DNA from: Actinomyces denticolens | Lineage (GTDB): Bacteria > Actinomycetota > Actinomycetes > Actinomycetales > Actinomycetaceae | Direction of reading: 5' to 3' | Length of the DNA: 64,000 bases | Assembly (NCBI RefSeq): GCF_002072185.1 | Contig: NZ_MVIW01000015.1 | Location: forward strand, 1 to 64,000 | Position numbers and translations under genes: made by a program | In this document: one piece after another, positions 1 to 43,353 of the stretch | Layout: every line of letters starts with the position of its first letter | Position numbering within the stretch: the stretch's first letter is position 1 | The notes under the pieces: model-generated | Told to the model about the DNA's origin: nothing | Seen by the model: only the letters and a program-made list of their open reading frames with translations | Databases searched by the model: none

Positions 1-534
1 GACAGCTGCAGGAACCTGGCTGACTGGCTGGAGCGTGAGGGCGAGGATGTCCGGCTGGACCACCTTGCTGTGACGCTGGCGCTGCACCGCTTCCACTTCG
101 CCCACCGAGCAGGCATCGTCATACCGCCGGGCAGCGGCGCCGTGGGGTGTCTGCGCCGCGCCGCCGCCGGAGAGCGGTCGCCTGACATCCTCCGCGGAGT
201 CGTTCCCGCTCAGCAGCGTCCCAACCCCGTCCTCGCCGAGACGGCGCAGCGCCTGTGGGACGAGTTGCGCGCGCAGACGCGAGTTCCCGGCGCCGACACC
301 GTGCAAGCCGTTGCCGAGCTCTACTGCCGCGGCTACGAGCCGACACGAGGGGCAGGGGATGCTCCATGCCTTGGCGGTGTGCCCCGCTACCCGTTCGCGA
401 GCGACAGCTACTGGCCCCAGCCGCCGGCTGCCAGGGAGGAGCTCCCACTCGGCGCGTCGGACGACGTCGAGGTGCCCGACCTGCGCTGGATCGATGTGGC
501 GACCAACGTCTCAGACAAGGAGATCGCGCGATGA
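1..534 (+). CDS. Trans-AT polyketide synthase, 3' end only (post-KS linker)
   Basis: The reading frame is open from base 1 and ends in TGA at 532-534, so only the last 177 codons of a larger gene are present. The peptide matches the flanking linker that follows each ketosynthase in the downstream genes: a segment like the 'ARTLAxGRxHLxHR' stretch, then 'AVAELYCRGY', then a YPF...YW block that normally closes the KS-linker region. No ACP, KR or DH follows before the stop, so the protein ends directly after a KS didomain and its module must continue on the next polypeptide. The next gene starts inside this stop codon (ATGA overlap), with AAGGAG about 5 nt upstream. A split-module junction is the simplest reading. 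The upstream content is unknown. Confidence 0.85.
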   Translation, partial: DSCRNLADWLEREGEDVRLDHLAVTLALHRFHFAHRAGIVIPPGSGAVGCLRRAAAGERSPDILRGVVPAQQRPNPVLAETAQRLWDELRAQTRVPGADTVQAVAELYCRGYEPTRGAGDAPCLGGVPRYPFASDSYWPQPPAAREELPLGASDDVEVPDLRWIDVATNVSDKEIAR

Positions 535-3500
535 CGCACGAGACCGACCCGACTGTCTCCCTGGACGCGCTGGCCCAGCTCGAGCTTGTGCGCTCCACCC
601 TGTGCCACGACGCCTCCCGTCCCTGCCAGCTGCTCGACGTCGAGTGGGGCGTGGCCGACGCCGTGGTGCGCGGTGGTGACGCTGTCCGCGTGGCGCTGGA
701 CGCGAAGGGGGCCCGGCGTAGGTGGACGCTGGTGCGCAGCGGCAGTACGGGGGACACCGCTCTGTGCAGCGGCCTCCTCGTAGTGCCTCCCGGAGAGGCC
801 ACGGACGAGGACGTGATGACGCTTGAGCGCGCTGCGCTCTTCTCCCGTGACGCTGTCGCCACTGCTGAGCTGCCCGCACCAGCGCGGTGGCAGCGTGTTG
901 CCCGGTACGAGGCGGTCGGGGCGCATGCCGAGGCCGCGGACCTCGACAGCAATGGTGTGCTGCTGCGGCACGAGGGATCCGGGTCGCCCGCTCGCCGACT
1001 GGTGGTGCTGGAGGCGCACGGCGCCGGCTCAGGCCATGCCCAGGCTCAACCGGGCTGGGCTGTTGAGGAGCGCCTGGTCGAGGAACTGCGGGAAGTGATC
1101 TCTGCCCTCCAGCACATCCCGCGCGACATGGTCGGGGAGGAGGAGCCCTTCTCCCACTTCGGTCTTGACTCGATCACACTGGGCGAGCTCTCGGAGCTCC
1201 TCTCGGAGAGGCTGGGGCTCAGCCTGACTCCCGATATCTTCTTCCGCTACGGGTCGTGCGTGGAGCTGGCCAGTGGGCTTGTCACCGGCCATGCCGCGTG
1301 GGCGGCGCAGCGCTACGAGACCGCGGACGCGCCTCGCCAGACCCGTGTGCTCCCTGTGCCCGCGCCCTCTGCCGTCTCGGCACGGGAGAGGCCTGCTGGC
1401 ACGACCTCCCACACGGGCGGCTTCGTATCGATCATCGGCCTCAGTGGCCGTTTCCCCGGTGCCCGTGACGTCGGCCAGTTGTGGAAGAACCTGCGCGCTG
1501 GTGACTGCGCGATCACTCAGCTGCCCGTTGACCGCCCTGGCTACCCCTCCAACTGGAGCGCCTCCGTGGCTGGGTGGCTGCCCGGTGTCGCTGAGTTCGA
1601 CCCGCGCTTCTTCGCCATCTCACCCAAAGAGGCGGAGCAGATGGATCCGCGCCAGCGCCTCCTGATGCAGGAGATGTGGCGAGCCCTGGAGGACGCGGGG
1701 GTCGGGGAGAGGACACTGCGCAGCCACCGCGTGGGCCTGTTCGTGGGGGTCGAGAACGGTGACTACGCCCACCACCTCGGTCACGACGAGGACCTCACGG
1801 GTGCCAACGACTCGGTGCTGGCCGCGCGCCTGGCCTATTTCCTGGATCTGCACGGGCCTGTCCTGGCGATCAACACAGCCTGTTCGTCAGGGCTCGTGGC
1901 GCTGCACGAGGCGCGTGCCAGCCTGGAGCGGGGGGAGTGCGACATCGCCGTGGTGGCAGCGGCGAACATCCTCACGCACCCGCGCACCATCGAAGCCATG
2001 AGTGCCGCGGGCATGCTGTCCACCACCGGCAGCTGCCGGGCTTTTGACAGGCGTGCCGACGGCATGGTCCCGGGCGAGGCCGTGGTCGCCCTCGTGCTGG
2101 AGGACGGGGACAAGGCACGTGGCGAGGGAAGGCGGGTGCGCGCCGACGTCCTGGGCTCCGGCGTCAACCACGACGGGCGCACCCAGGGGATCACTGCTCC
2201 TAACGGCGCCGCCCAGGCGGACCTGATCTCGTCGGTGATGGCGCAGTCGGGCGTCTCGCCCGCGCAGGTCGGGCTTGTCGTCGCCCACGGGACAGGCACG
2301 CCGCTGGGAGACCCGGTCGAGGTCAAGGCGCTCGCCGCGGTGATAGGCTCAGCCGAGCGCGACGCGCCTGCTCTGCTCATGTCGACCAAGCCCAGCATCG
2401 GTCACTGCCAGGCGGCCTCAGGCCTGGTCAGCACCGTCGTGGCGACGTGCGCCCTCACCAGCGGTGAGGTGCCTGTCAGTATCTGCTGCGAGGAGCCCAG
2501 CGACTACGTCGACTGGGACGCGACAGGCCTGAGGGTCTGCGCCCAGACCCAGCCGTGGCCACAGGCCGCGGAGCATCCTGTGGCCGCTGTCAGCGCCTTC
2601 GGCGTGAGCGGCACCAACGCGCACGTCCTGCTGCGCGCGCCTTCACCGGCCGACTCCACGAGCTGGCCGGAGGACTCGCAGATCCTGCTGGTCTCCGGTG
2701 CCACCGAGGAGTCGTTGCGGCGCCAGTGCGCTGACCTGGCGGTGGCGCTGCGCGACAGGCGGCTGTCCCTGGCCCCGGTCGCGCGCACGCTCGCCGAGGG
2801 ACGTCACCACCTCGCCTGCCGCGCAGCGGTCGTCGCCGCGACCAGTGGCGAGGCTGTCCACGCCCTCGAGGAGTTGGCGCAGGGCCATGCGGCCGTCTCC
2901 CGGGTACCTCGAGGATTTCGCCCTAATCGGGCTCAGGAGACCGCCCTGGAGGAGATGCTGCGTGGCGCGCACGGCGCCGACAAGGCGACCAGGGGCGAGG
3001 TGCTGCGCGCGGTTGCGGACAGCTACTCGCAGGGCTATGTCTCCGACCTGTCGCCCCTGTGGGGAGCGAGCCAGCCACCACTCGTCTCGCTGCCTGGCAC
3101 GGTTTTTGCCACGGACACCTACTGGGTGGGGGAGCAGCCGCGCGCCCAGTCGCCTGAGAACGCCGGTGGCCTGGCCGGCAGGAACGCCTCAACGGTTGGC
3201 GAGGGACTGCGCACGCGGACCCGCCTGCGCCCCGCGGATCCGCTGGTTGCTGATCATCGTCTTGACGGCGTGCCCACGCTGCCAACGGCAGGGCATCTCG
3301 CCGTGCTATGCGACGCGGCCCGGCTCCTGGACGGGCGCGTACCCGGACCGGGCGCGGGGTTGCGCTTGACCGGGTTCAGCATTCAGCGCCCCGTCGTCGT
3401 GACCGGCGAGACCGATCTCGTGGTACGTGCTGAGGAGATGGAGGACGGCTCGGTCCTGCTCACCCTCGGCTACGGTCCGAGCGGTGCCCCGCCGCAGGAC

Positions 3501-6500
3501 ACCAGCAGCGTCGTGCTGGAAGCACTGGCCGCACCGACGGCCGCGGATCCTGTGGAACCAGGCTCCGCCGGGATGCAGCCTGTCGACAGCGAGCAGCTGT
3601 ACCGCATGCTGGGCAGGGTGGGGCTGGACTATGGCACTGCATATCGCACGGTCACCGGCGTGCTCACCGCCGGTGAAGAGGCCAGTGTGACCGCTGGCGC
3701 CGCGGTGGCCACGTGGGACGCGGCAGTGGTGCGCCCTGATGTGCTGGACGGCGTCCTCCAGGCCATCGGGGTGGCCCAGCCCGGCTCCAGCGAGCCAGGC
3801 CTGCCGGTCGGCGCCGAGAGCATCACCGTGCACCGGGCGATGCCCGCGCGGGTCATTGCCCGCGTTCGCCACCTGGGACGCAGGGGGCGCCTCACACGGT
3901 TCGACATCGACGTCGCCGACACCGACGGCGCGCTGGTGCTGGAGATCAACGGTCTCACCACGGCACCGGCCGCCGACAGCCCGGCCGAGTCGGAAGTGAG
4001 CCTGCTCGCCCCCGACTGGGCGCCCCTGGCCTCCCAGGATTCCGGAGCCTCTGAGGCGTCCGCGGCCGAGTCGCGGGACCGGCACGTGGCTGTTGTCGGG
4101 GCTTGTGTCGCCCCGCAGGCTCTTGGCGCTGACACGGTGGTGCACCACATCCCCCTGACGGGGGCGGCCTCGTCTGATGACTATGAGGAGGCGGCACAGG
4201 GACTGCTGCGGCTGAGCCAGGAGCTGGTCGGCTTGAGACCGGCCCGCCCCGTCCTGCTGCAGGTGCTCGTCCCGGAGGGCCTTGCTGGCGGCCTCGTCGG
4301 CATGATCGCCACTATCAGCAAGGAGAGCCGACGGGTCATGGCCCAGCTCGTCGAGGTGGCGCCGCGGGCTGATGCCGAGGCGCTGGGGACGCTGTTACGG
4401 GCTCAGGCCTCCGCGACGCTCCCCGCTGCCCACCTGCACGTCGCCGGGGCGTCGGCCAGGCGCAGGACGTGGAGTCCCATGACGTGGCGGACGCACGCCT
4501 GGTCGCCTGGCTCCTATCTGGTCACTGGAGGCCTTGGAGGCCTCGGTCTCCTGGTGGCGCGGGATCTGCTGAAGCAGGAGGGAGTGCGCGTGATGCTGTC
4601 CGGGCGCTCGGTTCCGGGCGAGCGCACCCGCGCGCGACTCGCCGAGCTGGACGCTGGGGACCGTGCCCGTTACGTCCAGCTGGACCTAGCAGATCCCGCC
4701 GACGTGCGTCGTGTCGTCGACGAAGTGGAGAATCTGACCGGCGTCATCCACTGCGCGGGTGCCACTCGAGACGGCTCGCTGCGCACCAAGACTCCAGAGG
4801 ATCTCGCGTCGGTGCTGGTGCCGAAGGTGCGGGGGACGGTGAACCTCGACGCGGCCACCGCGCGCCTCCCGCTCGAGGTCTTCGCGCTCTTCGCCTCGAC
4901 CACAGGCGTGCTGGGCAACGCTGGCCAGATAGACTACGCCGCGGCCAACGGCTTCATGGATCGCTGGGCGCACGAGCGCAACCTACTGGTGCAGCAGGGT
5001 GAGCGCCACGGTCGCACGGTGAGTATCGACTGGTCGCTGTGGGCTGAGGGCGGCATGGCCATTCCTGAGGCGCTGCTGGAGAGGATGGCTCGGGAGCAGG
5101 GCTTCGCGCCCATCTCGTCCACGGCTGGCCTCACGGCGCTCCACGCGAGCATCGCCTCCGGCGAGTCCCAGACGCTGTGCCTCGCCTCCACGCCGGGACG
5201 TACCCCAGAAGTGCTGCGCGACCTGCTGGACGTTACGGAGGAGCCCGAGGAGACCGGGGGAGCGCCGGTTCCGTCGCGCCCGCAGCCGGGCACCACGGTG
5301 GTGGCCGCTACTCAGCCCCACCCTGTCACCCCCAGCGAGGCCGTGCTGGAACGAGTCGTGGAGTTGCTCCATGAGAGCCTCGAGATACCCCTTGACTGGC
5401 TGGACCCTGACGTGAATCTCGACCAGCTGGGGCTGGACTCCATCAGAATGATCGGCGTCATTGAGGATCTCGAGCGCGAGCTGGGCGAGTTGCCCAAGAC
5501 GCTCTTCTTCGAGTACGAGACCCTGAAGGAGCTGGCCGACGATCTCGCCTCCGAGCGCCCCGAGGCGGCTGCCGCCCTTGTATCCACTGCTCTCGCTGGT
5601 ACGCAGGCTCACGCACCGGTCCAGCAGAAGGCTGCCGTGAGGAGCGCGGTCAAAGACACAGCCGGCGCGGGCACCGCTGCCAGTAGGAAGGCTGCTTCCC
5701 CGCGTCGCAGCAGGCGTCAGCAGACATCGGAGAGGGGGACTCACGCAGCTCCCGGACAGCTGGACATTGCCATCGTCGGTCTGGCAGGGCGCTACCCCGA
5801 CGCCCAGGACGTGGACCAGCTGTGGCAGAACCTGCGATCTGGTCATGACGCAGTGAGCTCGGTCCCGGTCTCGCGCTGGGACACCGACACCCTGGCGTGG
5901 CGCGACCAGAGGGGGCCGGTTCCGGGCGCGGGAGGCTTCCTCGACGGCGTTGATCACTTCGACCCGTACTTCTTCGGAATCTCTCCGCGCGAGGCCGAGC
6001 ACATGGATCCGCAGGAGCGGCTGTTCCTGCGCTGCGCCTACGAGACCATCCAGGACGCGGGCTACCGGCCGTCGGACCTCAAGGCCGAGGGCAGGCAGTC
6101 CACCGGCGTGTTCGTCGGGCTGATGACCACCGAGTACCATCTCTTCGGCGTGGAGGCACAGATGGCGGGGATGCCGCTGGCTGTACCGGGCAACCTGGCC
6201 TCGGTCCCCAACCGTGTCTCCTATCATCTAGGCCTTAAGGGGCCAAGCCTTGCGGTTGACACCATGTGCTCATCGACGTTGTCCGCACTGGACACCGCCT
6301 GCCGAGCGATCCTCAGCGGCCAGTGCGCCCGGGCCATCGTGGGCGGGATCAACCTCACGCTGCATCCCAGCAAGCTCCTGCTGCTGGACAGCACCGGCTT
6401 CATGTCGAAGACGGGCCACTGCCACGCGTTCGGCGCCGACGCTGACGGCTACGTTCCCAGCGAGGGCGTGGGCGCCGTCCTGATCAAGCCGCTGCGCCAG

Positions 6501-9500
6501 GCTGAGCGGGACCGTGACCATATATACGCCGTCATCAAGGGGTCCTGTCTGAACCATGCTGGCAGGACCACTGGCTTCACCGTCCCCAGCCCCGTGGCGC
6601 AGGCCGAGGTCATCAGTCGTGCGCTGGAGGAGAGCGGCGTCGACCCCGCAACGGTGACGTACGTCGAGGCTCACGGAACGGGTACCAAGCTGGGTGACCC
6701 GATTGAGATCCGTGGCCTGGCGCAGGCACTGGGCGACGGGGCCGCCTGCGCCATCGGGTCGGTTAAGGCGAGCCTGGGTCACGGCGAGGGAGTCGCTGGC
6801 ATGGCGTCGCTGACCAAGGTCCTGCTTCAGATGAGGCACCGCACCCTGGTGCCATCGCTGCACAGCGAGCAGCTGAACCCCCTGCTGGGCATTGAGCAGA
6901 CCCGCATGGCGGTGCAGCATGACGTCGCACCGTGGGAGCCTGCCTACCCCGGTGGGCCGCTGCGCGCCTGTGTATCGTCCTTCGGGGCGGGCGGGTCCAA
7001 TGCCCATGTGGTGCTTGAGGACTACCAGGACGACGCCACTCGTCAGGCCGCCCGCCCTGGTCCAGTGCTCGTTGTTCTGTCTGCGCGTAGCGAGGACGCC
7101 CTGCGCCGCAGTGCCGAGCGGCTGGTCGCCGCGATTGATGCCGAGAAGATGGATGAGAACGACCTGGAGGCCATCGCCTACACCCTGCAGGTCGGTCGCG
7201 AGGCCTTCGCCTGGCGCGCGGGGGCTGTCGTGACTGACCTGACTGCCATGCGTGGCTTTGCGACCCGTGTGCGCGATGGCCAGGGCCTGCGGCATGTCAA
7301 CCTGCGTGCGGCGCAGCCGGTGCCCGTGGAGTCTCTCGTGACGTTGGACCATCAGCTTGAGGCCTGGCTTGCTGGCGGCCTATCCGACTGGGCGGGTGTC
7401 GCAGGATCAGGGCGTCGGGTGAGCCTGCCCGCATACCCGTTCGAGGAGGAGCGGTACTGGCTGTTCCCCAAGGCGGGTCCGGGAGCCAGCGCTGACGACG
7501 TCGGAGAGGAGCGCGCCGCCGAGCCGGAGCAGGCTGTGGCTGGGACGCCAGTGCCCGATCTCGTCATGGAGGCCTGCGCGACGGCCGTCCAGCAGGTCCT
7601 TAAGATCCCCCGAGACCGTCAGGATCCCGACGACTCCTTCCAGGACATCGGCTTTGACTCGGTGACCATCGTCGAGATAGCTGAGGCGCTTGGCGACGCG
7701 CTGGGGATCGACCTGGGACCGGACGTGCTGTTCAGCCATCCCACGCCTCGCCTCCTGGCCGAGCATCTGGCGAGCACCTATGCCGATGCCCTGGCCGGTG
7801 GGCACGGGACGGATCCCGAGCCGTCAGGGACCACCCGCTCGGCGCCAGCTCCTCTTGTTCCCGCTGCGGCCCCCAGGACGGTGGAGCACGACCCGGCGGT
7901 CGTCGTCGGCCGCTCAGTCCGGGCGGCGCAGTGCGACGACGTAAGGCAGCTGTGGGAGGCAGTGCGCAGCGGCGAGAGCCAGATCCTCGACCTCGCGGAG
8001 CGACGGCCAGGCTGGGAGGGCACGTCGCGTCGGGTTGCCGCACTGAGCGACATTGACGTCTTCGACCCGCTCTTCTTCGAGATCTCGCCACGTGAGGCTG
8101 TTGGCCTGGATCCGCGAGCCCGTCTGCTGCTAGAGGAGATGTGGCACGCGCTTGAGGACGCTGCGCTGGGGCGACGCGCGCTGGAGCGCTCGACAGTGGC
8201 CGTCTTCGTCGGTGTGGAGGACGGCGACTACCAGTTCCTCGACAACCCCGACAGACAGGTCGTCTCCAACCACACGGGTGCGCTGGCCGCGCGCCTGAGC
8301 TACATGCTGGACTTGCACGGGCCTGCTATGGCGATCAACACCGCCTGCTCCTCTGGCCTGGTCGCCATGCACCAGGCGGTACGCTGCCTGGAGTCGGGCG
8401 AGTGCGACGTGGCCGTCGTCGCGGCTGTCAACCTGCTGACCGACCCAGGCACCTTCGACACCATGGCCGAGGCCGGCATGCTCTCGCCCGGTGGTGTCTG
8501 CGCGGCGTTCAGCGAGGCCGCGGATGGCATGGTGCCAGGCGAGGCGGTTGCCGCCATTGTCCTGATGCGCGAGTCGGACGCGGTTCGTGACGGCCGTCAG
8601 CTCCATGGCGTCGTGCGCGGCAGCGGCGTCAACTACGACGGCAGGACGAACGGCCTGACCGCTCCTAACGGGGACGCCCAGAGGAGCCTGGAGGCAGCGG
8701 TCTACGCCGAGGCCGGCGTCCAGGCTGACGAGATCGGTCATGTCATCGCCCACGGCACCGGTACGGGCCTGGGCGACCCTATCGAGCTCAACGCGCTCGC
8801 AGCAGCCCACGAGTCCCTGGGCTCGGCGCCCGGAACCTGTGCCGTGACCTCCGTCAAGCCGGTCGTGGGACACAGTCAGGCCGCGTCAGGGCTGGTGAGC
8901 CTCATTGTTCTGCTGGAGTCCCTGCGCAGTGGAGTCATCCCGGCCAATCCTGCCTGCGCGCCCCTCAACCCACACATCCGCCTGGAGGGCCGCCCTGTGT
9001 CGATCCTCCCGCGGGAGCGCCCGTGGCCGGTTCGTCAGGGTCAGCCGCGTGTTGGCGCCGTGAGCGCCTTCGGTGTCAGCGGCACGAACGCCCATGTTGT
9101 GGTCAGCGAAGTCACGTCCCCGTCACCTAGCATTCTGGAGCCCGCGATGAGTGTAGTTCTTCCCCTACTGGTCTCTGCGAAGTCGCCTGAGGCGCTCGAC
9201 TCCATGCTGCTGGAGCTGTCGCGCTGGTGCGCCTCTCCGGAGGCTCCCGACCTGCGATCGGTGGCGCGCACACTGGCCGAGGGGCGGTACCACCATGAGT
9301 ACCGGTGCGCGGTGCTCGCTGCCTCCGTGATAGAGGCAGCGAGTGCGCTGCGCGGCGCCGTTGCCGATCCCGATGCCGATGGTGTGCGCTCGGTGGTGGC
9401 ACGCGGCCAGGTGGCTCAGGAGCCGTCCGCTCAGATGTGTGAACTGACGAGGCGTCTGGCCGACGACCCTGGTGGCGAGAGCGCCGCGCAGATCGCGGCG

Positions 9501-12500
9501 CTCTACCTCGCCGGCGATCTTCCCGCAGATCTGCTGGGAGAGTCGGGCGCCTCGCTGGTCTCGGCCCCCGGGTACGTGTTCTCCCGGGAGCGCTTCTGGC
9601 CCCAGGCGCCCCGGACCGGCCAGGTCCCGGCATCGGTCCCTGATGCGCCGGCCGTTGCCGAGGATCCTGAGGACAGGGCTGGGGCGGCGTGGGAGCCGCG
9701 CATGGTCGGGTGGCCTGTTGAGGAGCGCCTTCGTGCCGTGGTGAGTGATGAGGTCGGAGCGGTGCTGCGACTGGACCACTCACGCATCGACCCCACTGCG
9801 CGTCTGCAGAGCTACGGCTTTGACTCGATCACGTTCGTCGAGCTGGCAGGCGCCCTGACCGAGAAGCTGGGGGTGACCGTCCAGCCCTCGGACTTCTATC
9901 AGGAGTCCACGGTCAACGACGTCGTTGCCAGCCTGGTGTCGCGTCACGAGCAGCAGATCTCCGCGCTGCTGAGGGCGCCGGGGGCCGGTGCGGATGCCGA
10001 TCGCGCTGGGAAGGCGCCCGCTCCCGCCCCGGCGGGCGAGCACCCCCACGGTCCTGGTGCCCGGCCGGGCAGTGACCAGGCGCCAGCGAGGGACAGCCAG
10101 CCAGGCGAGGTGGTCGTTGTCGGAGCCAGCGGCCAGTTCCCGCAGGCCCGTGGAGTGGAGGAGCTGTGGGACCTGGTGGCCTCGGGTCGCTGCGCGATCG
10201 GTTCGGTGCCGCAGGAACGACGGGAGTGGCACGTCGACGACGTCGTCCGTCGCATGGGCTGCCTGGAGAGGGTCGCGGAGTTCGATGCCAGGTTCTTCGA
10301 CATCGCTCCCCGCGAGGCCTACCAGATGGATCCGCGACAGCGTCTGCTGCTGCAGGAGATGTGGCACGCGGTAGAGGATGCCGCGCTGACGGATGAGGAG
10401 CTGCACGGCGAGCGCGTGGGCGTCTACGTCGGTATCGAGGAAGGCGACTACTCGCGTCTCCTGGACCAGGCAAGCGTCACGTCCAACACCAACTCAGTGC
10501 TTGCGGCGCGGCTGAGCTACTTCCTTGACCTGTCCGGTCCCTGCATGGCCATCAATACCTCGTGCTCCTCTGGCCTGGTCGCGCTGCACCAGGCTCGGCT
10601 CGCGCTGCAGCAGGGCGACTGCGACACCGCGATCGTCGCGGCGGCCAACGTGCTGAGCGCCCCTCCCACCTTCGACGCGATGGCTGACGCTGAGATGCTC
10701 TCGCCCACTGGGAGGTGTCGTGCCTACGACTCCGGGGCCGACGGCATGGTGCCTGGTGAGGCGGTTGTCGCGCTGGTGCTTCAGCGCGAGGGCTCGGCGC
10801 GTCGGCGGGGTCGTCGGGTCAGCGCTCGGGTTCTTGCGACGGCCGTGAACTATGACGGTCGCAGCAACGGCATCACAGCTCCGAGCGGGTCCGCGCAGGA
10901 GGACGTCATCGCACGCGCCCTGGAGGCCGCTGGTGTCCAGCCGGCTACGTTGGGGCTGGTGGTTGGGCATGGGACGGGCACCCGTCTTGGGGACCCCGTC
11001 GAGGTGCGCGCCCTGGCGAGCGCCTACTCCTCCGCGCCCCCGCACAGCTGCGCGCTGATGTCGGTCAAGCCATCCATCGGTCACACGCAGGCGGCCGCCG
11101 GCCTGGTCAACGCGCTCGTCGCGATCAAGGCCATGGAGCACGAGGCCCTTCCACCGACAGCCTGCTGCGATCAGCCCAGCGATTACGTCGACTGGGACGA
11201 GGCAGCCCTGTACCTCAATCGTGAGGCCCGCGCCTGGCCCGAGGCCTCCCACCCTCGCCGTGCTGCGACCAGCGCCTTCGGGTTCAGCGGTACCAACGCG
11301 CACCTCATCCTGGAGCAGGGCGACGCCCTGCCTGACATGCGGCCATCAGCGGCTCCCGTCCTGCTCGCGGTGTCGGCGGTGGACGAGGAGGCTCTGGGAC
11401 GCCAGGTACGCGCGTTGCGCACGTGGCTGGAGGCCCACCCCCGAGTACCGCTGGACGCTGTCGCGCGCACGCTCGCTGTGGGCCGCCGCCACCTGTCGCA
11501 CCGGGTCGCCGTGGTCTGCGCGGACTGGGCCCAGGCGTGCGCCTCACTCGCCGAGGCTGCCGGGTCCCACACCGGGGCGCGTGTCTTCTCCGGTGCCTCG
11601 GGACATGACACCGCCTCCGTGGCTGGGCTGGCGGCCTTCATGGACCATCAGGCGGCCGTGGTGGCGGACGCGGTCGATCCCGTCGCCGTCGACGAGGCGC
11701 TTCGCGCCGTCGCGCAGCTGTACTGCCAGGGCTACTCGCTGCCCACCCGCCTGTTCGAGGGCGCTCCGCTGATCAGTCTTCGTGGTTATGAGTTCGAGCG
11801 CAGCGCTTACTGGGTGCGTCCGGACTCGACTCGTGCCACGGCCCCGGCACCAGGAAGGCTGTCACCAGCGACCTCGCAGGATCCGCTGGCACGCGAGTCT
11901 CTTCCCAGCCGCGCGCATGTGCCCAGCAGCCCGGCCGAGCCTCCTGAGCCGGAGGGGCTGGTCCACCTGATGCCGCTGGATGAGCCCGTGCCCGCAGAGA
12001 CGCCATGCGCGTCGTCGCAGCAGGTCACCCTTGATGAGCCTTCCTCTGAGCCGCCCGCCTCGCCCGAGGGGGAAGCCGTGGGCGCGGTGCGGGAGCAGCC
12101 AGCGGGTGAGGAGGCACCGCCCGCTTCCGACATGTCGGAGGTGAGGGACCGCCTGGTGGCGAGCCTGGCGCGGGAGCTGTTCGTGGAGCCCGAGGACGTG
12201 GATCTCGACCTGACATTCTCTGAGCAGGGGCTGGACTCGGTCGTCGGGGTGGAGTGGATTCGTGCGGTGAACAAGGAGTTCGGGCTGGCGTTGGCGACGG
12301 CCAGGCTGTACGAGTTCCCGACGGTGGAGAGATTCGCGACGATGGTGGCCGCAGAGGTGGCTGCCAGCGCGCCTCCGCAGGAGACCCGCGTGCTTGACGC
12401 GCCGGCTGGTGCCCAGGACGGCCTCGACGCCCTGCTGCACCAGGTCTACGACGGCGCGGTGCCTCCCACCCAGGCCGCAGAGCTGATGGCGCAGGAGGTG

Positions 12501-31475: not shown

Positions 31476-34400
31476 TACCGTCGGCTTACTGAAGCAGTCA
31501 ATCTCCACCATCCGCGAGTTGCGGGCGGACCTTGAGGCGGTGCGACGACGCAGCCACCCGGAGCCGATCGCCATCGTCGGCATGGCCTGCCGGTTTCCGG
31601 GTGCTGCAAGGAGCCCCGAGGACTACTGGCGCGTTGTGCGGGACGGTGTCACGACCGTCGTACCGGTCCCGGAGCAGCGGTGGGACGCGGACGCCTTCTA
31701 CAGTCCCGCCCCGGCCAGGCCTGGCCGGTCCTACGTGCGCAGTGCCCACTTCTTGGAGGACGACGTCGCGGGCTTCGACGCCAGGTTCTTCAAGATGGCG
31801 CCGGTCGAGTGCCGCTCGGTGGATCCGCAGCAGCGGCTGCTGCTCGAGATCGTGTGGGAGTCCCTTGAGGACGCTGGAATCGACCCTCTGAGTCTGGCTG
31901 GCAGCCAGACCGGGGTGTACCTGGGTATCTCGGGCAACTCCGAGTACGGCAACCTGATCGGCTCGGTGTCAGATGTAGATCAGTACGTGTCCACGGGAGT
32001 CGTCTCCAGCGTGGCCGCTGGGCGCGTCTGCTACACCCTTGGCCTCAACGGTCCTGCGGTGTCCGTCGACACGGCTTGTTCGTCGTCGCTGGTCGCCGTC
32101 AAGCTCGCGATGGACGCGCTGCGCCAGGAGGACTGCGACGTCGCCCTGGCGGCGGGCTGCAGCCTGATGCTGGCACCGTCTGTGATGTCCAGTCTGTGCG
32201 CCATGAACGCTCTTGCTCCGGACGGCCGCAGTAAGCCCTTCTCCGCCGACGCTGACGGCTACGGCCGCGGCGAGGGGTGCGGTGTCGTCGTGCTCAAGCG
32301 GCTTGGAGCCGCGATAGACGCTGGTGACCGTGTCTGGGCGGTGCTGCGCGGCGCCGCCATCAACAACGACGGCGAGAGCAGCGGACTCACGGTGCCCAGC
32401 GCGCATGCCCAGCGTGATGTCCTCGCCCGGGCGCTCAAGGTCGCCGAGGTCAGCCCTGATGAGATCGACATGCTTGAGACCCACGGCACTGGAACCCTGC
32501 TCGGGGACCCGATCGAGACCGACGCGATTCGCAGCGTCTACGGGGACCGGCAGGAGCCGCTGCGGCTAGGGGCGGCGAAGGGCAACATCGGCCACCTGGA
32601 GTGCGCCTCCGGCATGGCCGGGCTGATCAAGGCTGTGCTCCAGGTGTACCACGGTGAGTTCGTCCCGGTCGCTGGCCTCACCGAGGTGAATCCCCGCGTC
32701 GGCGAGGGCCGTGGTATCGCTTTCCCGCGAGAACGCGAGCAGTGGCCGCGTCCGGAGGGGCGACCGCGTCGTGCCGCGGTGAGCGCGTTCGGCTTCAGCG
32801 GGACCAACGCCCACGTCGTGCTCGAGGAGGCTCCGACTCCGCCGGCGGCCGCGCCCTCTGCTAGTGATCCGGTGCTGACGTTGTCAGCGAGGACCTCGGA
32901 GTCCCTGCTCGAGCAGGTACGGCGGTACGCGGACTTCTTCCGTGCCCACCCCGACGTCGACCTGGACGCGGTGTGCCAGCAGACCAACCTGGGCCGGGCG
33001 CTGTTCGAGCACCGGCTGCTGGTTCTTCCGCGCTCGGTCTCCGAGGCCGTCCAGGTGCTTGACGAGATGAGTCGATGGGCGGAGGGCAGGGAGGATCTTT
33101 ACGCTGACGCCGTTGAGATTCTCGGAACCAGCCACGGCCGGGACCGCTACGCTGCCCGTCGGCGTCTGTTCCTGACCTTGAGCGACGGTCGTGCGCTGCT
33201 GGCGCACACCGATGACCAGATCCCACCCAAGTTCGTTCTCGCTCTTGGGTCGGACAAGACTGATGCTGACCAGCAGGAGCTGTGGGCGAGGTGGCCGGGC
33301 TACGCCGAGGCCCGCGCGGTCGCGGCTGCCGCCGCACAGGGCGCTGGCGACCTGGCAGATGTCTTCTCCCATGCCTACGCGCTGGGAACGATGCTTCGAC
33401 AGCTGGGCGTGGAGCCGAGCCTGGTCACTGGCTGTGGAGGCGGGGCGATGGCTGCCGCCGTGCTGGCTGGCCTGGTCGACCTGGACTCTGCGGCCGGGGC
33501 CTTGTGCCAGATAGCGCGGGGGGAGAGGCCCGGGGCTCCCCGGCTGCGCAGTCCCCGTGTGCGCTACTGCTCCTGGGAGGCGGGCGCCGTGGAGCGGGAC
33601 ACTCGTGCTGCCTGGGAGATGGCCTGCGCTGATGCGGCCTCTGGGGCGTCCTCGTCGTCCCCGCTGCCCGGCATCGAGAGGATGGGCTACCGCTTCGTGC
33701 TCCTGGGAGGGGTCGGACACCTGCAGAGCGCGCGCGACGACGTTGTCCTGCTGCGCACCGGCGACGCTGACGGCAAACCCGAGATCTCGAGGGTTCTGGC
33801 TCAGACAACTGCTCTGGGAGGGTCAGTGCGGTGGCCCAGGGGAGGGCCTCTCTTGGAGCGAGGAGTACAGCTTCCCACCTACCCGTTCCAGCATGTGCGC
33901 TACTGGCTGGAGGCGGATGAGCCAGGACCGCGCACGCTGCTCGACGCTCACAGGTTCGCCCTCGACGGGGCGCGACTGGACCTTCCCGGGACTGACCCCA
34001 ACATCCTGCATGTCTTCTCCGCTGAGAGCTTCAGTGAGGCGGCGGACAACTCTGGAATCGTCCATATCGGCTACTACATGGAGCTCCTTTCGCGCGCGGC
34101 CAGCCCCGTCCTGGACGAAGGGCACCTCGTTGTCGAGTGGATGGAGCTGCTGCAGGCTCTGGTCGTCCCGCCGGATACTCCGGTCGAGGTGCTGCTGAGC
34201 TTCAGCGAGGACTTTCCTGCCGGGACGTTCAAGATCTACACCCGGGAGGCTGGGGGCGCGTCGTGGGCGTCAATCGCGCGTGGCGCGTTGTCGGTGACGC
34301 ACGACCCGTGCCCCGATGCGCCGTTCGCTGACGACGAGGAGGCTGTCCCATTCTCGCAGGAGGAGTTCTATGGTCCGCTGGAGAACGACAAGGGCTTCTA

Positions 34401-36018
34401 CTTCGGCCCCTCCGTGCGGGCCGTCGTCTCTGGCCGTCGACATGGCACCTGCGGGATCGTGGAGCTGAGCAGAGCCGATGGCACCCCCCGTCGGGGCCAG
34501 TACGCGCTTGGCTTCCACCCTGGTTTCGTCGATGCCTGCGCGCAGGCGTTCAACCGGTTCTCTCACGAGCGGACACCGGCTGGCCAGAAGTACATGGTGC
34601 AGAGGGTGGAGCGGGTGCGGCTGTGGGGCTCCACCGCGCCCGACGACGTGGAAGGTCCGCGGTGGGGTCGTGTGACCGTTGACGATATCGACGTCGACTC
34701 GGGCACCCTCAGTGGTTCCTTGTCTGTGTCCAGCGATGCTGGTGCTGTACAGCTTGACATGGGTCGTGTTGTCCTCAAGGCCTTTGATGAGGAGAGGATC
34801 GCCCTGATGACGGCCGCTCAGTCCTCCCAGCGGGGAGTGGACGAGGCTCTGCTCGCGCGCTTCCAGCGTTCTTCGCAGGAGGGAAAGGTCGCTCTTGTGC
34901 TCGAGATGCTCCAGGATCTGGTCAGTGAGGTCCTTGGGATGGAGCGGGCAGAGGTATCAGCGGCGCTAGCGATGCAGGACCTCGGGCTGGACTCGATGAC
35001 GGGTATGGAGCTCTACACCAAGGTGTCTGAGCGCACTGGCACGACGCTCACCCTCACCGACCTTCTGGACGCGGACAACCTGGCCGGGCTCGCGCAGGAC
35101 ATCGCCGCGGCGATGCAGCGGCACCGGCAGGACCGGCGTGGGGATGATGCCGTGGACACCTCCCTGTCGCACTGGCTGCGCGGCACTGAGAAACTCTCGA
35201 GGCCCGCGAGGGTGAGGCTGCTGTGCTTCCCGAACGGGTACCGAAGCGCGGACATGTTCGACGGGTGGCAAGAGGTCCTGGGGCCCGAGATCCAGGTCCT
35301 GGCAGTCCAGCTACCGGGAATGGACGCGTCACGCCTGCGCGAGGCGCCCCCGGTCTACGTCGACAGGTTCTGCGAAACGCTGGAGAGCATTGTCGGAGAG
35401 GCCCTCTCAGATCTGCCCGTCGCCACCTTCGGGCACAGTTGGGGATCGCTTTTCTCTTTCCGTCTGGCTCACCGCCTGCGCACCAGCGGGGCGCTTAACG
35501 TGGTCCGCGCCTTTGTCTCGGGGTTCACCGCCCCTAATCGTCCCAACGGAGGCACCGAGAAAGTGCTGCGTGAGTTGCAGCGCGAGGGATTCGACCGGAT
35601 TCCCCAGTTCGATGAGGTCGAGGGAGACGAGCATCGCCTCAATGCGGTAGTGGCTGCCTACGTGAAGGCGTGGAAGTACTCTGAGGCGGAGACACGCGCT
35701 ACTCTTCCGCAACTGCTTGCGGCCTGCTGCCTGATCGACCGATACAAACACGCGGAAGGTGAGAAGCTGGACGTGCCTATGACGGTGCTCCACGGCGTTG
35801 ACGACTACGGGGTCTCTCTGGCAGAATCGCGTGCGTGGGAGGACCTGGGAGCGCGAGAGGTCAACCTTCACGTCCTCGCGGGGGATCATCAGTTCATCAA
35901 CGTAGAGCAGTCAGAGGCGCAAGTACTGGAAATTGTGCGCGCCGAGCTTCTTGCCAGCCTGCCTAAGGCGCGCCCCTCGAGCGAAAGCCGGGACGAAGAC
36001 GAAAGGGTCCAGAGATGA
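31465..36018 (+). CDS. Terminal polyketide synthase module: KS-AT(dead)-DH-like-ACP-TE
   Basis: A 1517-residue protein. Start ATG 31465 overlaps the previous stop by 11 bp. Residues 1-30 are a coiled coil (LLKQSISTIRELRADLEAVR), typical of PKS N-terminal docking. KS10 (Cys205, THGTGT, NIGHLECASG) resembles cis-AT KSs rather than the other KSs here. Residues about 585-745 keep AT-like features, such as a YALGTMLRQLGVEPSLVTG stretch, but the GHSxG elbow reads GCGGG (Gly658 for Ser), so loading activity should be absent. A double-hotdog DH-like region follows; its DxxxQ half is intact (Asp1023, Gln1027) but its first half reads HIGYYMELL instead of HxxxGxxxxP. ACP11 is at Ser1177. The C-terminal thioesterase (GHSWG Ser1325, Asp1446, His1475) should release the product by hydrolysis or cyclisation. 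Confidence 0.92.
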   Translation: MATSTVGLLKQSISTIRELRADLEAVRRRSHPEPIAIVGMACRFPGAARSPEDYWRVVRDGVTTVVPVPEQRWDADAFYSPAPARPGRSYVRSAHFLEDDVAGFDARFFKMAPVECRSVDPQQRLLLEIVWESLEDAGIDPLSLAGSQTGVYLGISGNSEYGNLIGSVSDVDQYVSTGVVSSVAAGRVCYTLGLNGPAVSVDTACSSSLVAVKLAMDALRQEDCDVALAAGCSLMLAPSVMSSLCAMNALAPDGRSKPFSADADGYGRGEGCGVVVLKRLGAAIDAGDRVWAVLRGAAINNDGESSGLTVPSAHAQRDVLARALKVAEVSPDEIDMLETHGTGTLLGDPIETDAIRSVYGDRQEPLRLGAAKGNIGHLECASGMAGLIKAVLQVYHGEFVPVAGLTEVNPRVGEGRGIAFPREREQWPRPEGRPRRAAVSAFGFSGTNAHVVLEEAPTPPAAAPSASDPVLTLSARTSESLLEQVRRYADFFRAHPDVDLDAVCQQTNLGRALFEHRLLVLPRSVSEAVQVLDEMSRWAEGREDLYADAVEILGTSHGRDRYAARRRLFLTLSDGRALLAHTDDQIPPKFVLALGSDKTDADQQELWARWPGYAEARAVAAAAAQGAGDLADVFSHAYALGTMLRQLGVEPSLVTGCGGGAMAAAVLAGLVDLDSAAGALCQIARGERPGAPRLRSPRVRYCSWEAGAVERDTRAAWEMACADAASGASSSSPLPGIERMGYRFVLLGGVGHLQSARDDVVLLRTGDADGKPEISRVLAQTTALGGSVRWPRGGPLLERGVQLPTYPFQHVRYWLEADEPGPRTLLDAHRFALDGARLDLPGTDPNILHVFSAESFSEAADNSGIVHIGYYMELLSRAASPVLDEGHLVVEWMELLQALVVPPDTPVEVLLSFSEDFPAGTFKIYTREAGGASWASIARGALSVTHDPCPDAPFADDEEAVPFSQEEFYGPLENDKGFYFGPSVRAVVSGRRHGTCGIVELSRADGTPRRGQYALGFHPGFVDACAQAFNRFSHERTPAGQKYMVQRVERVRLWGSTAPDDVEGPRWGRVTVDDIDVDSGTLSGSLSVSSDAGAVQLDMGRVVLKAFDEERIALMTAAQSSQRGVDEALLARFQRSSQEGKVALVLEMLQDLVSEVLGMERAEVSAALAMQDLGLDSMTGMELYTKVSERTGTTLTLTDLLDADNLAGLAQDIAAAMQRHRQDRRGDDAVDTSLSHWLRGTEKLSRPARVRLLCFPNGYRSADMFDGWQEVLGPEIQVLAVQLPGMDASRLREAPPVYVDRFCETLESIVGEALSDLPVATFGHSWGSLFSFRLAHRLRTSGALNVVRAFVSGFTAPNRPNGGTEKVLRELQREGFDRIPQFDEVEGDEHRLNAVVAAYVKAWKYSEAETRATLPQLLAACCLIDRYKHAEGEKLDVPMTVLHGVDDYGVSLAESRAWEDLGAREVNLHVLAGDHQFINVEQSEAQVLEIVRAELLASLPKARPSSESRDEDERVQR

Positions 36019-37265
36019 GCCGGCTGTCAGGAATTGAGGCCATCAACTTCTATGGAGGAAGCGCGTACCTGGATGTCGAGGAGCTGGCGCGCCACCGCCA
36101 GTTGGATAATAGCCGCTTTGAGAACCTGCTGATGTCGCAGCGCTCTGTCCCGCTTCCCTATGAGGATCCGGTGTCCTATGGCGTCAACGCGGCCGAGCCG
36201 ATCGTCTCCGCCATGTCCCCGCGAGAGCGCGACAGCATCGAGATGGTTATCACCTGCACCGAGTCCGGCATTGACTTCGGGAAGTCAATGAGTACCTACA
36301 TCCACGAGATGCTGGGGCTGTCACGCCGGTGCCGGCTGTTCGAGGTCAAGAACGCCTGCTTCTCGGGTACCGCTGGTCTGATGATGGCAGCCTCCTACGC
36401 GCTCTCCTCGGGAGCCAAGGCGCTCGTCGTCGCCACCGACCTGGCCCGTTTCACTGCCGCTGACGCCGGTGAGGCCCTGCAGTCGGACTGGTCCTTCGCT
36501 GAGCCAAGTGGGGGAGCGGGGGCGATCGCCATGCTCGTGAGTCAGCAGCCGCATGTGCTCCGACTGGATCCGGGGGCCTACGGGCTCTACAGCTACGAGG
36601 TGATGGACACCTGCCGACCGGTCCCGGACAGCGAGGCAGGTGACGCGGACCTGTCACTGCTGTCCTACCTGGACTGCTGCGAGAACGCCTACCGCGACTA
36701 CGCCTCGCGCGTGGCCGGTGTGGACTACCAGAGGACCTTTGACTACTTGAGCTTCCACACGCCTTTCGGGGGAATGGTCAAGGGGGCGCACCGCACGATG
36801 ATGCGTCGCGTCGCCAAGGTGCGCAAGCAGGAGGAGATTGACCGCGACTTTGATTCCCGTGTGCGTCCCGGTATCGAGTTCTGTCGCAGAGTCGGAAACG
36901 TCATGGGGGCGACGGTGTACCTTAATATCCTCAGTACCATCCACCACGCCGAGGTGTCGCGTTCCTGCAGACTGGGAGTATTCTCCTACGGCTCGGGCTG
37001 TTCCTCGGAGTTCTACAGCGGCGTCTTCGACCGGGACAGCCAGGAGCTGGTGGCTAAACGCCGCATCGCCGACCACCTGGACAGCCGGTACCGGCTCAGC
37101 ATCCCCGAGTACGAGATGCTGCTGCGCACGAACGGGGCCGTGGCCTTCGGCACCCGTAACGTCGACCTTGACCTGGATCTTATTCCGGGTGCTCGCGCGC
37201 GGGGTGGGCGACGGCTAGTCCTGTCACGTATCCGTGAGTACCACCGCGAGTACGAGTGGGTGTGA
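36015..37265 (+). CDS. HMG-CoA synthase-like beta-branching enzyme (HCS, PksG/MupH family)
   Basis: A 416-residue member of the 3-hydroxy-3-methylglutaryl-ACP synthase family. These enzymes condense acetyl-donor ACP with a beta-keto group on the PKS ACP. Family residues are visible: Glu83 in TCTESGIDFGKS, nucleophile Cys115 in NACFSGTAG and His248 in SFHTPFGGMVKGAH. Length matches PksG-type proteins. The ATG overlaps the TE-module gene stop (ATGA), so it belongs to the PKS operon. It is followed by an ECH2-like decarboxylase and an AcpK-like ACP, the usual partners. The recipient is inferred to be the Trp-flagged ACP5 ending at 12509. A primary-metabolism HMG-CoA synthase is unlikely given this context. 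Confidence 0.95.
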   Translation: MSRLSGIEAINFYGGSAYLDVEELARHRQLDNSRFENLLMSQRSVPLPYEDPVSYGVNAAEPIVSAMSPRERDSIEMVITCTESGIDFGKSMSTYIHEMLGLSRRCRLFEVKNACFSGTAGLMMAASYALSSGAKALVVATDLARFTAADAGEALQSDWSFAEPSGGAGAIAMLVSQQPHVLRLDPGAYGLYSYEVMDTCRPVPDSEAGDADLSLLSYLDCCENAYRDYASRVAGVDYQRTFDYLSFHTPFGGMVKGAHRTMMRRVAKVRKQEEIDRDFDSRVRPGIEFCRRVGNVMGATVYLNILSTIHHAEVSRSCRLGVFSYGSGCSSEFYSGVFDRDSQELVAKRRIADHLDSRYRLSIPEYEMLLRTNGAVAFGTRNVDLDLDLIPGARARGGRRLVLSRIREYHREYEWV

Positions 37266-37266
37266 G

Positions 37267-38028
37267 ATGAGCGGGGACGTCGTCACACTGAATCATCCAT
37301 ATGACGGGATCGCCCTCATCCAGATGTGCGACCAGGAGGGCGGGAACACATTCACGGCCAGTCTTCTGCGACAGTTGCAGGAGCGTTTCGCGGCCGTGGA
37401 GGAGGATGAGTCGGTGCGCGCGGTCGTGCTGACGGGGGTGGGCCCCTACTTCTGCTGCGGAGGAACCCGGGAATCGCTGATTGACCTGCATGCCGGTCGT
37501 TCCACTTTTTTGGGTGAGAACTCCGGGGCGGCGGTGTACTCGCTCCCGTTGTCCTGCCCGGTGCCTGTGATCGCGGCGATGCAGGGCCACGCTATCGGCG
37601 GGGGACTGTCGCTGGGACTGTTCGCGGACTCTGCCGTCCTGGCGGCCGAGGGCGTCTATGGGGCGACTTTCATGAAGTACGGCTTCACCCCAGGGTTCGG
37701 CTCCACGTTGGTCTTTCCAGCCCGGCTGGGGCAGGTACTGGGCAATGAGATGCTGCTCAGCGCCAAGACCTACCGTGGTGTCGAGCTCGGGCGGCGCGGT
37801 GTTCCGTACCCTGTGGTGACACGGCGCGACGTGGTGGATGAGGCGCTGCAACTGGCGCGTGTGTACGCCGAGCGCCCCCGTCACTCGCTGATCATCCTGA
37901 AGGATGCCCTCGTCGCCGACCTGCGGGCGCGGCTCGCCTCGCAGATTGAGATCGAGCTCGTTATGCACGAGCGCACCATTCACCGGCCTGAGGTCGCTGA
38001 GCGCCTAGCGACCCTGTATGACGGCTGA
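37267..38028 (+). CDS. Enoyl-CoA hydratase/isomerase family decarboxylase of beta-branching (ECH2, PksI-like)
   Basis: A 253-residue crotonase-fold protein starting two bases after the HCS stop; an upstream GTG at 37234 would overlap HCS and is less likely. The oxyanion-hole segment (YFCCGG) and the block MKYGFTPGFGSTLVFP are typical of the ECH2 subgroup (PksI, MupK, CurF-ECH2), which decarboxylates the 3-methylglutaconyl-ACP to leave a methyl branch. The ECH1 dehydratase (PksH type) usually paired with it does not appear in this window, so it may be encoded upstream or elsewhere. Assignment to ECH2 rather than ECH1 rests on motif memory, not an alignment. Confidence 0.87.
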   Translation: MSGDVVTLNHPYDGIALIQMCDQEGGNTFTASLLRQLQERFAAVEEDESVRAVVLTGVGPYFCCGGTRESLIDLHAGRSTFLGENSGAAVYSLPLSCPVPVIAAMQGHAIGGGLSLGLFADSAVLAAEGVYGATFMKYGFTPGFGSTLVFPARLGQVLGNEMLLSAKTYRGVELGRRGVPYPVVTRRDVVDEALQLARVYAERPRHSLIILKDALVADLRARLASQIEIELVMHERTIHRPEVAERLATLYDG

Positions 38029-38063
38029 TCCCCAGGAACACTTCTCGAGAGAAAGGAAGAACA

Positions 38064-38312
38064 ATGACCACGGATACCGCCTTCGAGGCTCTCGTCGCCT
38101 CTGCCCGGGAGATTCTCGGGCTGCCTGAGGACCAGGTTGTGACTCAGGCCGATAGCCTCAGAGACCTGGGAGCCAACTCTGTTGATCGTGCCGACATCAT
38201 CACCGATGCCATGGAGGAGCTGGGTGTGTGGACCGCGTTGGTCAGCTTTGCTGACGCCCAGAACCTCGGGGAGCTGGCTGACGTCCTCGAGCAGAAGGCG
38301 GGCCAGGAATGA
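38064..38312 (+). CDS. Standalone donor acyl carrier protein of the beta-branching cassette (AcpK-like)
   Basis: An 82-residue discrete ACP preceded by a good AAGGAAG ribosome-binding site. The phosphopantetheine site is LGANSVDRADI with Ser39. The LGA(N/D)S(V/M)(D/E)RAEI pattern and the ending '..NLGELADVL' are typical of AcpK/MacpC/PksE-cassette donor ACPs, which carry the acetyl unit used by HCS, and differ from the DSI-type ACPs inside the PKS proteins. A donor ACP normally needs a malonyl-loading AT and a decarboxylating KS; neither is seen here. Confidence 0.92.
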   Translation: MTTDTAFEALVASAREILGLPEDQVVTQADSLRDLGANSVDRADIITDAMEELGVWTALVSFADAQNLGELADVLEQKAGQE

Positions 38313-39034
38313 GGCCGGTGGCTGTTGTGACCGGAGGCTCGCGCGGTATCGGTCGCGCCGTGGTCGAGCGCCTGGGGCGGGACGGCCACGATGTCGCGGT
38401 GCTGTGCTCCTCGGCAGTGTCGACCACCGATGACGCCTGTGCCGCGGTCCGGGCGGCTGGCGGCCGGGCAGTCGGCTATCAGTGCGATGTGAGTGACTCC
38501 TCCCAGGTCCGCACCACGGTCAAGGAGATTATCGACGAGCTGGGCTACCCCCAGGTCCTGGTGAACAACGCTGGTGTCATCCGGGACAACGTAACGGCCA
38601 TGATCAGCGATGAGGACTTCGACCGGGTCGTGGCTGTCAGCCTCCGTGGAGCCTTCCTCCTGACGCGCGAGTGCTACTTCGGCTTCCTGCGCCAGCGTCA
38701 CGGCTCCATTATCAACGTGGCGTCTGTGTCAGGGCTGACTGGTACGGTGGGCCAGTCCAACTACGCTGCGGCCAAGTCCGGGATGATCGGCCTGACCAAG
38801 TCGGTGGCCAGGGAGCTCGCAGAGCGAGGCGTGCGCTGCAACGCTGTTGCGCCTGGCCTGGTCCGCACGGAGATGGCGCACGACTCGATCTCTGACGACG
38901 CTCTGTCTCAGATCCCCATGCGCAGGGCGGCGCTGCCTGAAGAGGTTGCCAGCGTCGTCGCGTTTCTGGCTGGTCCTGACAGTACTTACGTCACTGGGAC
39001 GGTGATTCGTGTGGATGGTGGGCTGGCGGCCTGA
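38309..39034 (+). CDS. FabG-like 3-oxoacyl-ACP reductase (SDR family)
   Basis: A 241-residue short-chain dehydrogenase starting inside the ACP stop (ATGA overlap). The NADPH site is TGGSRGIG, NNAG follows, and the catalytic set is Ser139, Tyr152 and Lys156 (YAAAK). The sequence is closest to FabG-type reductases acting on acyl-ACP substrates. A discrete FabG is not a standard part of the HCS cassette. It could reduce a beta-keto left by the bare KS-ACP modules, act on the donor ACP, or be a stand-alone tailoring enzyme. It is the last gene of the coupled operon; 64 bases separate it from the next gene, and no terminator was recognised. Confidence 0.9.
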   Translation: MRPVAVVTGGSRGIGRAVVERLGRDGHDVAVLCSSAVSTTDDACAAVRAAGGRAVGYQCDVSDSSQVRTTVKEIIDELGYPQVLVNNAGVIRDNVTAMISDEDFDRVVAVSLRGAFLLTRECYFGFLRQRHGSIINVASVSGLTGTVGQSNYAAAKSGMIGLTKSVARELAERGVRCNAVAPGLVRTEMAHDSISDDALSQIPMRRAALPEEVASVVAFLAGPDSTYVTGTVIRVDGGLAA

Positions 39035-39098
39035 GGCTGTGATGGGCGGACGATCCTATGCTACTGTGCGGGTGGGTGTTCTGGGTGAGGACTTGTTT

Positions 39099-43341: not shown

Positions 43342-43353
43342 AATAGTTCCTCT

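Follow-up and report, generated by a model that had tools for sequence, protein, structure and literature searches.

What does the large polyketide synthase (PKS) cluster at the start of an Actinomyces denticolens contig make, is it of a known kind, and how did it come to lie where it does? The stretch analysed here, hereafter the window, comprises the first 64,000 nucleotides of the forward strand of contig NZ_MVIW01000015.1 (assembly GCF_002072185.1; G000:C7:1-64000), and its base 1 coincides with the contig end. Judging from the order and motifs of the encoded domains, the cluster is very probably a trans-acyltransferase (trans-AT) polyketide line of the SIA7248/marinomycin kind, of which the window holds the greater part and a second contig of the same genome, C21, the remainder. 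SIA7248 and marinomycin are salicylate-polyene-polyol dimers. The original prediction, made from the letters of the window, had not recognised the domain string as that of any known product. This did not hold, given the collinearity with Streptomyces sp. 7-21, the likeness of a free ketoreductase to SiaM and the text of PMC10813093 on marinomycin: a characterised cluster with a matching domain order, which the prediction itself had named as telling against it, is found as far as the available portion of that text and the 7-21 sequence allow it to be read.

The assembly line and its Streptomyces counterpart

Domain order in the window was read with Pfam, NCBIfam and local profile hidden Markov models (HMMs). 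Pfam and the local HMMs bear out the original count: ten complete ketosynthases (KSs; four in protein C, three in D, two in E and one in F), eleven acyl carrier proteins (ACPs) within PKS proteins (5 + 2 + 3 + 1 in C to F) plus one free ACP, and no active AT in the window, where all that is left of an AT is a truncated stretch following KS12. Cys-His-His is kept in all ten KSs and in KS_A on C21. The overlaps between PKS genes were likewise correctly foreseen: junctions B/C, C/D, F/HCS (an HMG-CoA synthase homologue) and ACP/SDR (a free short-chain dehydrogenase-type ketoreductase) are of the ATGA type, D and E share 8 bases, and E and F share 11 if F begins at ATG 31465. The run of close genes, with a single 35-base gap before the free ACP, extends to a phosphopantetheinyl transferase (PPTase) at 40645, which fits the proposed coupling of at least nine genes.

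That the line begins before the window, as had also been proposed, is borne out by a KS search of the whole genome, which returned 17 places, i.e., ten on the window contig, three on C21 and four elsewhere. C21 (40,151 bases) terminates inside a KS and encodes, before that end and in this order, a response regulator, a free AT, a free KS, an AT fused to an enoylreductase (AT-ER), an enoyl-CoA hydratase (ECH), protein A (ACP-KS-dehydratase (DH)), an ABC ATPase with a membrane protein, and the start of protein B (AL-ketoreductase (KR)-ACP); a histidine kinase and another ABC ATPase lie further left. A second Actinomyces genome, G042, carries the same DNA continuously, the end of C21 falling at position 39325 and the window start at 44081 of its stretch. 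KS1-X-ACP-KS2 occupies the interval; both of these KSs contain an N run and are readable only in part. Full protein B is AL-KR-ACP-KS1-X-ACP-KS2, the portion outside the window lying on C21 and in the contig gap, and the whole line, from C21, G042 and the window together, has 13 KSs, the free KS excluded. In G042, KS1 (39207-40870) and KS2 (42156-44199) share identical tracts of 362, 92 and 323 bases, which is probably why the assembly is broken between C21 and the window contig; we take these tracts to point to gene conversion inside the line.

The original prediction had proposed looking for a discrete AT left of base 1, and C21 holds both a discrete AT (C21:26830-27771) and the AT-ER (ending at C21:31196; AT motif GHSLGE, PfaD-type ER). 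Because these two accompany modules with no active AT of their own, the line is a trans-AT type I PKS. The free AT reads GSSLGE in place of GHSLGE and may be an acyl hydrolase with a proofreading role rather than a loader.

A search for the AT-ER gave matches at 80 or more loci, the best of which include Streptomyces sp. 7-21 (XESTO7-21, NZ_JAERRL010000003.1) and Actinomyces israelii, and 80 kb around each of these two was read with the same HMMs. The early order in 7-21 is AT / KS / AT-ER / (ECH) / AL-ACP-KS-DH / KR-ACP-KS-x-ACP-KS, the third PKS part is x-ACP-KS-DH-KR-ACP-KS-x-ACP-KS-ACP-KS-ACP-ACP-ACP, and the late part is KS-DH-KR-ACP-KS-DH-KR-ACP-KS-DH / KR-ACP-KS-(ACP-like)-ACP-KS-ACP-KR / KS-dead AT-ACP-TE, followed after the thioesterase (TE) by HCS, ECH, ACP and SDR. 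Both lines thus have 13 KSs in the same order with the same protein splits, and share an ACP that lacks its serine (GLDAYAL in 7-21, GLDAVTW here), a dead AT in the last module, an ACP placed before its KR, a W-flagged ACP, an HCS cassette and a SiaM-like KR, at protein identities of roughly 32-68% by gene. Eight of the 13 KSs (A, 4, 7, 8, 9, 10, 11 and 12) have their reciprocal best match at the matching position in 7-21, and the other five (1, 2, 3, 5 and 6) form one paralogue group with the 7-21 KSs from the same five places. In a tree of 42 KSs, from which KS1 and KS2 were left out, A, 4, 7 and 8 pair with their 7-21 counterparts at 100 UFBoot, KS10 at 93/73 and KS9 at 92/46; for KS11 and KS12, the 7-21 KS is nearer to a KS of genome G238 than to that of Actinomyces, within trios supported at 99/96 and 100/99. 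The tree also sets W3, W5 and W6 (91/76) beside S2, S3, S4, S6 and S7 (99/96), the pattern expected from gene conversion within each line.

The free SDR provides a second link. Its best match among solved relatives is SiaM (3woh), at 276.9 bits vs. 210.6 for the next, and the 7-21 SDR behaves similarly (385.5 bits, next 235). SiaM reduces intermediates on several SIA7248 modules and carries IRD in place of LDD, according to the available part of PMC4046962; the SDR here retains IRD. By sequence, the line therefore includes a SiaM-type ketoreductase, which we propose acts in trans on the modules without a KR.

Module order and protein splits agree both with 7-21 and with the account of the SIA7248/marinomycin line in the passages of PMC10813093 on the cluster. 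These describe a marinomycin cluster of 72 kb in which the HMG-CoA synthase (HMGS) MarJ is required for production and a methyl sits at C15, module 5 has an active DH that sets C20-C21, module 3 contains a domain named UN, and the first ACP of module 12 is inactive; the SIA7248 cluster has the same organisation at 78% identity. If the loading step is taken as module 1, marinomycin module n corresponds to KS(n-2) here and module 2 to KS_A. UN is then the X segment that follows KS1, KS3-DH-KR makes up module 5, KS10 and its Ser-less ACP fall in module 12, KS12 falls in module 14, and protein C covers part of module 4 through module 8.

The predicted product and the rival readings

From the domain order we predict the following chain. 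The AL domain, which is FAAL-like, would charge the ACP of protein A with acetate or some other short acid, after which 13 malonyl condensations and one HCS-borne methyl would give C29 from acetate. Where a module has no working KR (A/B, KS1, KS2, KS4 and KS5), the SiaM-like KR would carry out the reduction to a hydroxyl. As the beta carbons from KS_A on fall at C27, 25, 23, 21, 19, 17 and 15, KS3 would set C20-C21 and KS6 the C15 methyl, in agreement with the module mapping; a single alkene from KS3-DH-KR is predicted since the KS3 DH has both catalytic motifs. The methyl would enter at the KS6 module through its W-flagged ACP, the proposed acceptor, the W flag being the mark of a branching ACP. 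The stretch concerned, VEWIRAVN, is found a single time in the PKS proteins of this line; 7-21 has three copies, which sit in its triple ACPs at the matching position. A cassette for one beta-methyl is present as HCS, two ECHs, a donor-type ACP, the free KS (in which a Ser aligns with the catalytic Cys) and this one flagged ACP. KS7-KS9 with their DH-KR pairs would then build a conjugated tetraene (the DHs after KS7 and KS8 are apparently intact), the last three modules, unreduced, reduced and terminally DH-like, would close the salicylate ring, and the TE would couple two chains into a macrodiolide. One keto group left, one reduced and a DH-like end is the 6-methylsalicylate pattern. The PPTase would activate the ACPs.

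The product would accordingly be a macrodiolide of the salicylate-polyene-polyol type; given an acetate starter and an idle first DH, its formula would be C58H76O14, with a calculated [M-H]- of 995.516. Five marinomycin peaks at m/z 995.442 to 995.513 are given in the available text of PMC10813093. For SIA7248, the formula C60H84O18 (PMC9720112, available portion) agrees with a lactate starter and a single hydration in each chain. Two extra segments, one following KS1 and one opening protein C, look like degenerate DHs. A RhiE-like branching domain was considered for both and rejected: hhalign, with profiles built from two sequences each, places them on a DH profile (Prob 98.7 and 97.4, against 0.1 for KR and ACP controls).

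Several observations weigh against so close a relation to marinomycin and SIA7248. The likeness to the mar and sia clusters comes from the published description, SiaM and 7-21, and not from mar or sia sequences. The available text of PMC10813093 also names a KS in module 1 (marD_KS1) that has no place in our numbering, and calls the KS, DH and KR of marinomycin module 2 inactive. An inactive module-2 KS is incompatible with C29 from acetate, and KS_A here retains its catalytic triad; from the carbon count, either the module-2 KS works or the starter is longer. Best matches within the paralogue group of KS1, 2, 3, 5 and 6 fall off position save for KS6, KS1 and KS2 being partial. Compared with 7-21, the AL lies on the KR-ACP protein rather than on the ACP-KS-DH protein and is just 32% identical, the beta-branch ACP is single rather than triple, and the KR beside the AL, i.e., that of the A/B module, has Arg for a Lys that 7-21 keeps. 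Among the DHs, that of protein A has Arg for Gly in HxxxGxxxxP with Asp at the catalytic place (in 7-21, the first motif is intact and Thr replaces Asp); it may be active, which would give a product with one extra alkene. The DH after KS9 is weak, with Asn for Asp and the motif Pro lost (its 7-21 counterpart also has Asn and keeps Pro).

Some of these differences could mean that the line has the SIA7248/marinomycin backbone and makes a clearly different compound, for instance one with another starter and without dimerisation. The divergent and displaced AL, the single branching ACP and the Arg-for-Lys KR all point that way, and we regard this as a serious possibility, if somewhat short of even, considering that the order of 13 KSs, the salicylate-type terminal block, the TE, the HCS cassette and the free KR are all retained. 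Decay into a non-functional cluster is very unlikely. The dead AT, the Ser-less ACP, the weak DH and KR motifs and a transposase remnant at the right edge would suit it, yet the dead AT and Ser-less ACP are present in 7-21 too, the remaining defects are local, and the frames of PKS proteins C to F, HCS and AT-ER are open in both A. denticolens and G042. It is hardly credible, finally, that the cluster is an orphan with no characterised counterpart: near-identical HCS genes in just 2 of 49 genus genomes, and terminal-module matches at E 1e-60 in 2 of 394 sampled class genomes (its own, and G238 at 36%), would be in keeping with such an orphan, which collinearity with 7-21 and the marinomycin/SIA7248 description in the available literature contradict. 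A line of the SIA7248/marinomycin kind is the reading that we retain.

Table 1 Features of the window, with the basis or main characteristic of each assignment.
Feature	Position	Strand	Basis or remark
Protein B, C-terminal end: KS2 C-terminal linker and tail	1..534	+	weak CurL-like PKS_C match, below Pfam cut-off
Protein C: X (apparently degenerate DH)-ACP / KS3-DH-KR-ACP / KS4-ACP / KS5-ACP / KS6-ACP (beta-branch)	531..12509	+	HMMs
DH of KS3 module, HxxxGxxxxP and LDG intact	3168..3974	+	motif reading
ACP after KS6, stretch VEWIRAVN (W flag)	12171..12350	+	motif reading
Protein D: KS7-DH-KR-ACP / KS8-DH-KR-ACP / KS9-DH, triene section	12506..23578	+	HMMs
Protein E: KR-ACP / KS10-(Ser-less ACP)-ACP / KS11-ACP-KR	23571..31475	+	HMMs
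Ser-less ACP-like insert after KS10, GLDAVTW	about 26778..26945	+	Ala replaces the phosphopantetheine Ser
Protein F: KS12-dead AT-DH-like-ACP-thioesterase (RifR-like TE)	31465..36018	+	candidate start codon
Fossil AT in F, truncated, GHSxG reads GCGGG	33211..33783 (edges approximate)	+	motif reading
HMG-CoA synthase homologue (HCS, MarJ-type), beta-branching	36015..37265	+	67.8% identical to 7-21 HCS
Enoyl-CoA hydratase/isomerase (ECH), beta-branch cassette	37234..38028	+	55.5% identical to 7-21 ECH
Free donor-type ACP of HCS cassette, LGANSVDRADI	38064..38312	+	motif reading
Free SDR ketoreductase, SiaM-like	38309..39034	+	closest solved relative SiaM 3woh
Metallophosphoesterase, overlaps SDR gene	39009..39944	+	domain search
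Sfp/PptT-type phosphopantetheinyl transferase (PPTase)	39890..40645	+	domain search
42-base repeat of nusB 3' end (95%), proposed right island edge	41247..41288	+	67.9 bits; best of 200 control queries 28.2

The nusB-pyrR site and a probable exchange between species

The Actinomyces setting of the cluster and its rarity, both part of the original prediction, are supported by the distribution of the AT-ER. At E 1e-60 it has matches in 4 of 213 family genomes, all of this genus, of which two carry the present cluster and two (A. israelii as G012, placed in the same genus, and G029) are 47-48% identical. HCS matches occur in six of the 49 genus genomes, two at 100% (its own included) and four at 31-34% (G026, G036, G025 and G010), i.e., the cluster is present in 2 of 49.

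The cluster sits between nusB and pyrR, which share a contig and strand in 43 of the 49 genomes. The gap between them is ≤5 kb in 38 of these, 24.3, 9.4, 9.9 and 6.8 kb in G004, G009, G023 and G024, respectively, and 65,254 bases in G042. Empty sites are seen in relatives with gaps of 1088 (G015) and 1096 bases (G007); against G007, the left flank aligns up to 4 bases beyond the nusB stop, and the right flank picks up again at window position 43742, 14 bases further on in G007. Toward the right edge lies a copy of the nusB end (Table 1), separated from the resumed flank by 2.45 kb of other DNA that includes an ABC-F gene; in G042, the corresponding match is 22 bases only. No integrase was met among the part of the frames put to Pfam. 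The nusB-pyrR interval may be a recurrent insertion site.

Over the cluster, A. denticolens and G042 are 98.9% (18,165 columns) and 99.0% (40,662) identical, compared with 88.3% (16,802), 92.9% (9,474) and 87.1% (4,420) in the long flanks and 91.0% in a short fourth alignment (1,433). Identity rises at about C21:22,100, right after nusB, and falls at about window position 39,000, the end of the SDR gene, with a dip at C21:26.0-26.7 kb. Since the cluster is ~99% identical while its long flanks are 87-93% identical, the simplest reading suggests that it was exchanged recently between the two Actinomyces species, by recombination or renewed integration. Taken together, the evidence leaves it evenly poised whether a host-associated Actinomyces makes a marinomycin-class dimeric polyene antibiotic, with a starter of its own, encoded on a 63-kb island that lies at the 3' end of nusB and was recently passed between two species of the genus.

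A few neighbouring genes fall outside this block. The metallophosphoesterase and PPTase genes (39009-40645) are only about 94% identical to G042, vs. 99% in the block on their left, and counterparts of the two were not found in the 80 kb of the 7-21 region. A Mutator-family transposase remnant (40795-41151, minus strand) lies just inside the nusB-end repeat. The ABC-F type gene (41683-43353, minus strand) occupies a GC-poor stretch and has PoxtA and other ABC-F proteins as its closest solved relatives; it is missing from the G042 stretch read and therefore lies outside the shared cluster.

Relation to known systems

The kind of line is already known from SIA7248 and marinomycin, and according to the available text of PMC10813093, which cites Donia 2014, the human oral cavity later turned out to harbour the SIA7248 cluster. 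New here are the nusB-pyrR location, the nearby second copy of the nusB end, the ~99% identical cluster in a second Actinomyces species and the occurrence in 2 of 49 genomes. A literature search on Actinomyces and such clusters, with partial coverage, gave no title tying the genus to this cluster; in the available part of the main text of Helfrich et al. 2021 (PMC7930024), "Actinomyces" is absent and SIA7248 is named once. Aleti et al. 2019 (PMC6469967), in its available part, lists bacillaene and pristinamycin homologues in two genomes, including that of Actinomyces timonensis DSM 23838.

Actinomyces, among whose species are well-known inhabitants of the human mouth, now has a complete collinear counterpart of an antibiotic class described from Streptomyces and 'Marinispora'. 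The line predicts a concrete compound and mass, offers a diverged copy of a rare pathway in which what each domain must keep can be compared, and provides a case of a whole 60-kb pathway seemingly passed between species at a mapped site.

Other lines in and around the genus are more distant. The A. israelii DSM 43320 cluster (G214:C3) shares the genus, the AT-AT-ER arrangement and the terminal KS-ACP / KS-ACP-KR / KS-dead AT-DH-like-ACP-TE block, whereas its 14 KSs stand in another order, with best KS identities of 36.8-52.8%, and no match to HCS, ECH or the donor ACP was found in the 80 kb read; we rejected it as the same line on the grounds of KS order and the lack of an HCS match. It is a second Actinomyces trans-AT line, and G029 is known from its AT-ER alone. 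G238:C31, from another family of the class, has the same terminal salicylate-type block and four KSs on 20 kb of contig. Two short contigs of the A. denticolens genome (G000:C62 and G000:C64) each have an open frame that encodes both a KS and an AT, and this genome may also have cis-AT PKS genes.

Closest in kind are the two characterised clusters, as described in the available text of PMC10813093. With mar of 'Marinispora' CNQ-140, the Actinomyces line shares the trans-AT type, 14 modules, an HMGS (MarJ) for the C15 methyl, UN in module 3, a DH in module 5, an inactive first ACP in module 12 and repeats between PKS genes. With sia of Streptomyces sp. A7248, it shares the organisation, as for mar, and the iterative trans-acting KR SiaM, the closest solved relative of its SDR. 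SIA7248 starts from lactate and is without the C20-C21 alkene, whereas the DH of the corresponding module in Actinomyces looks intact.

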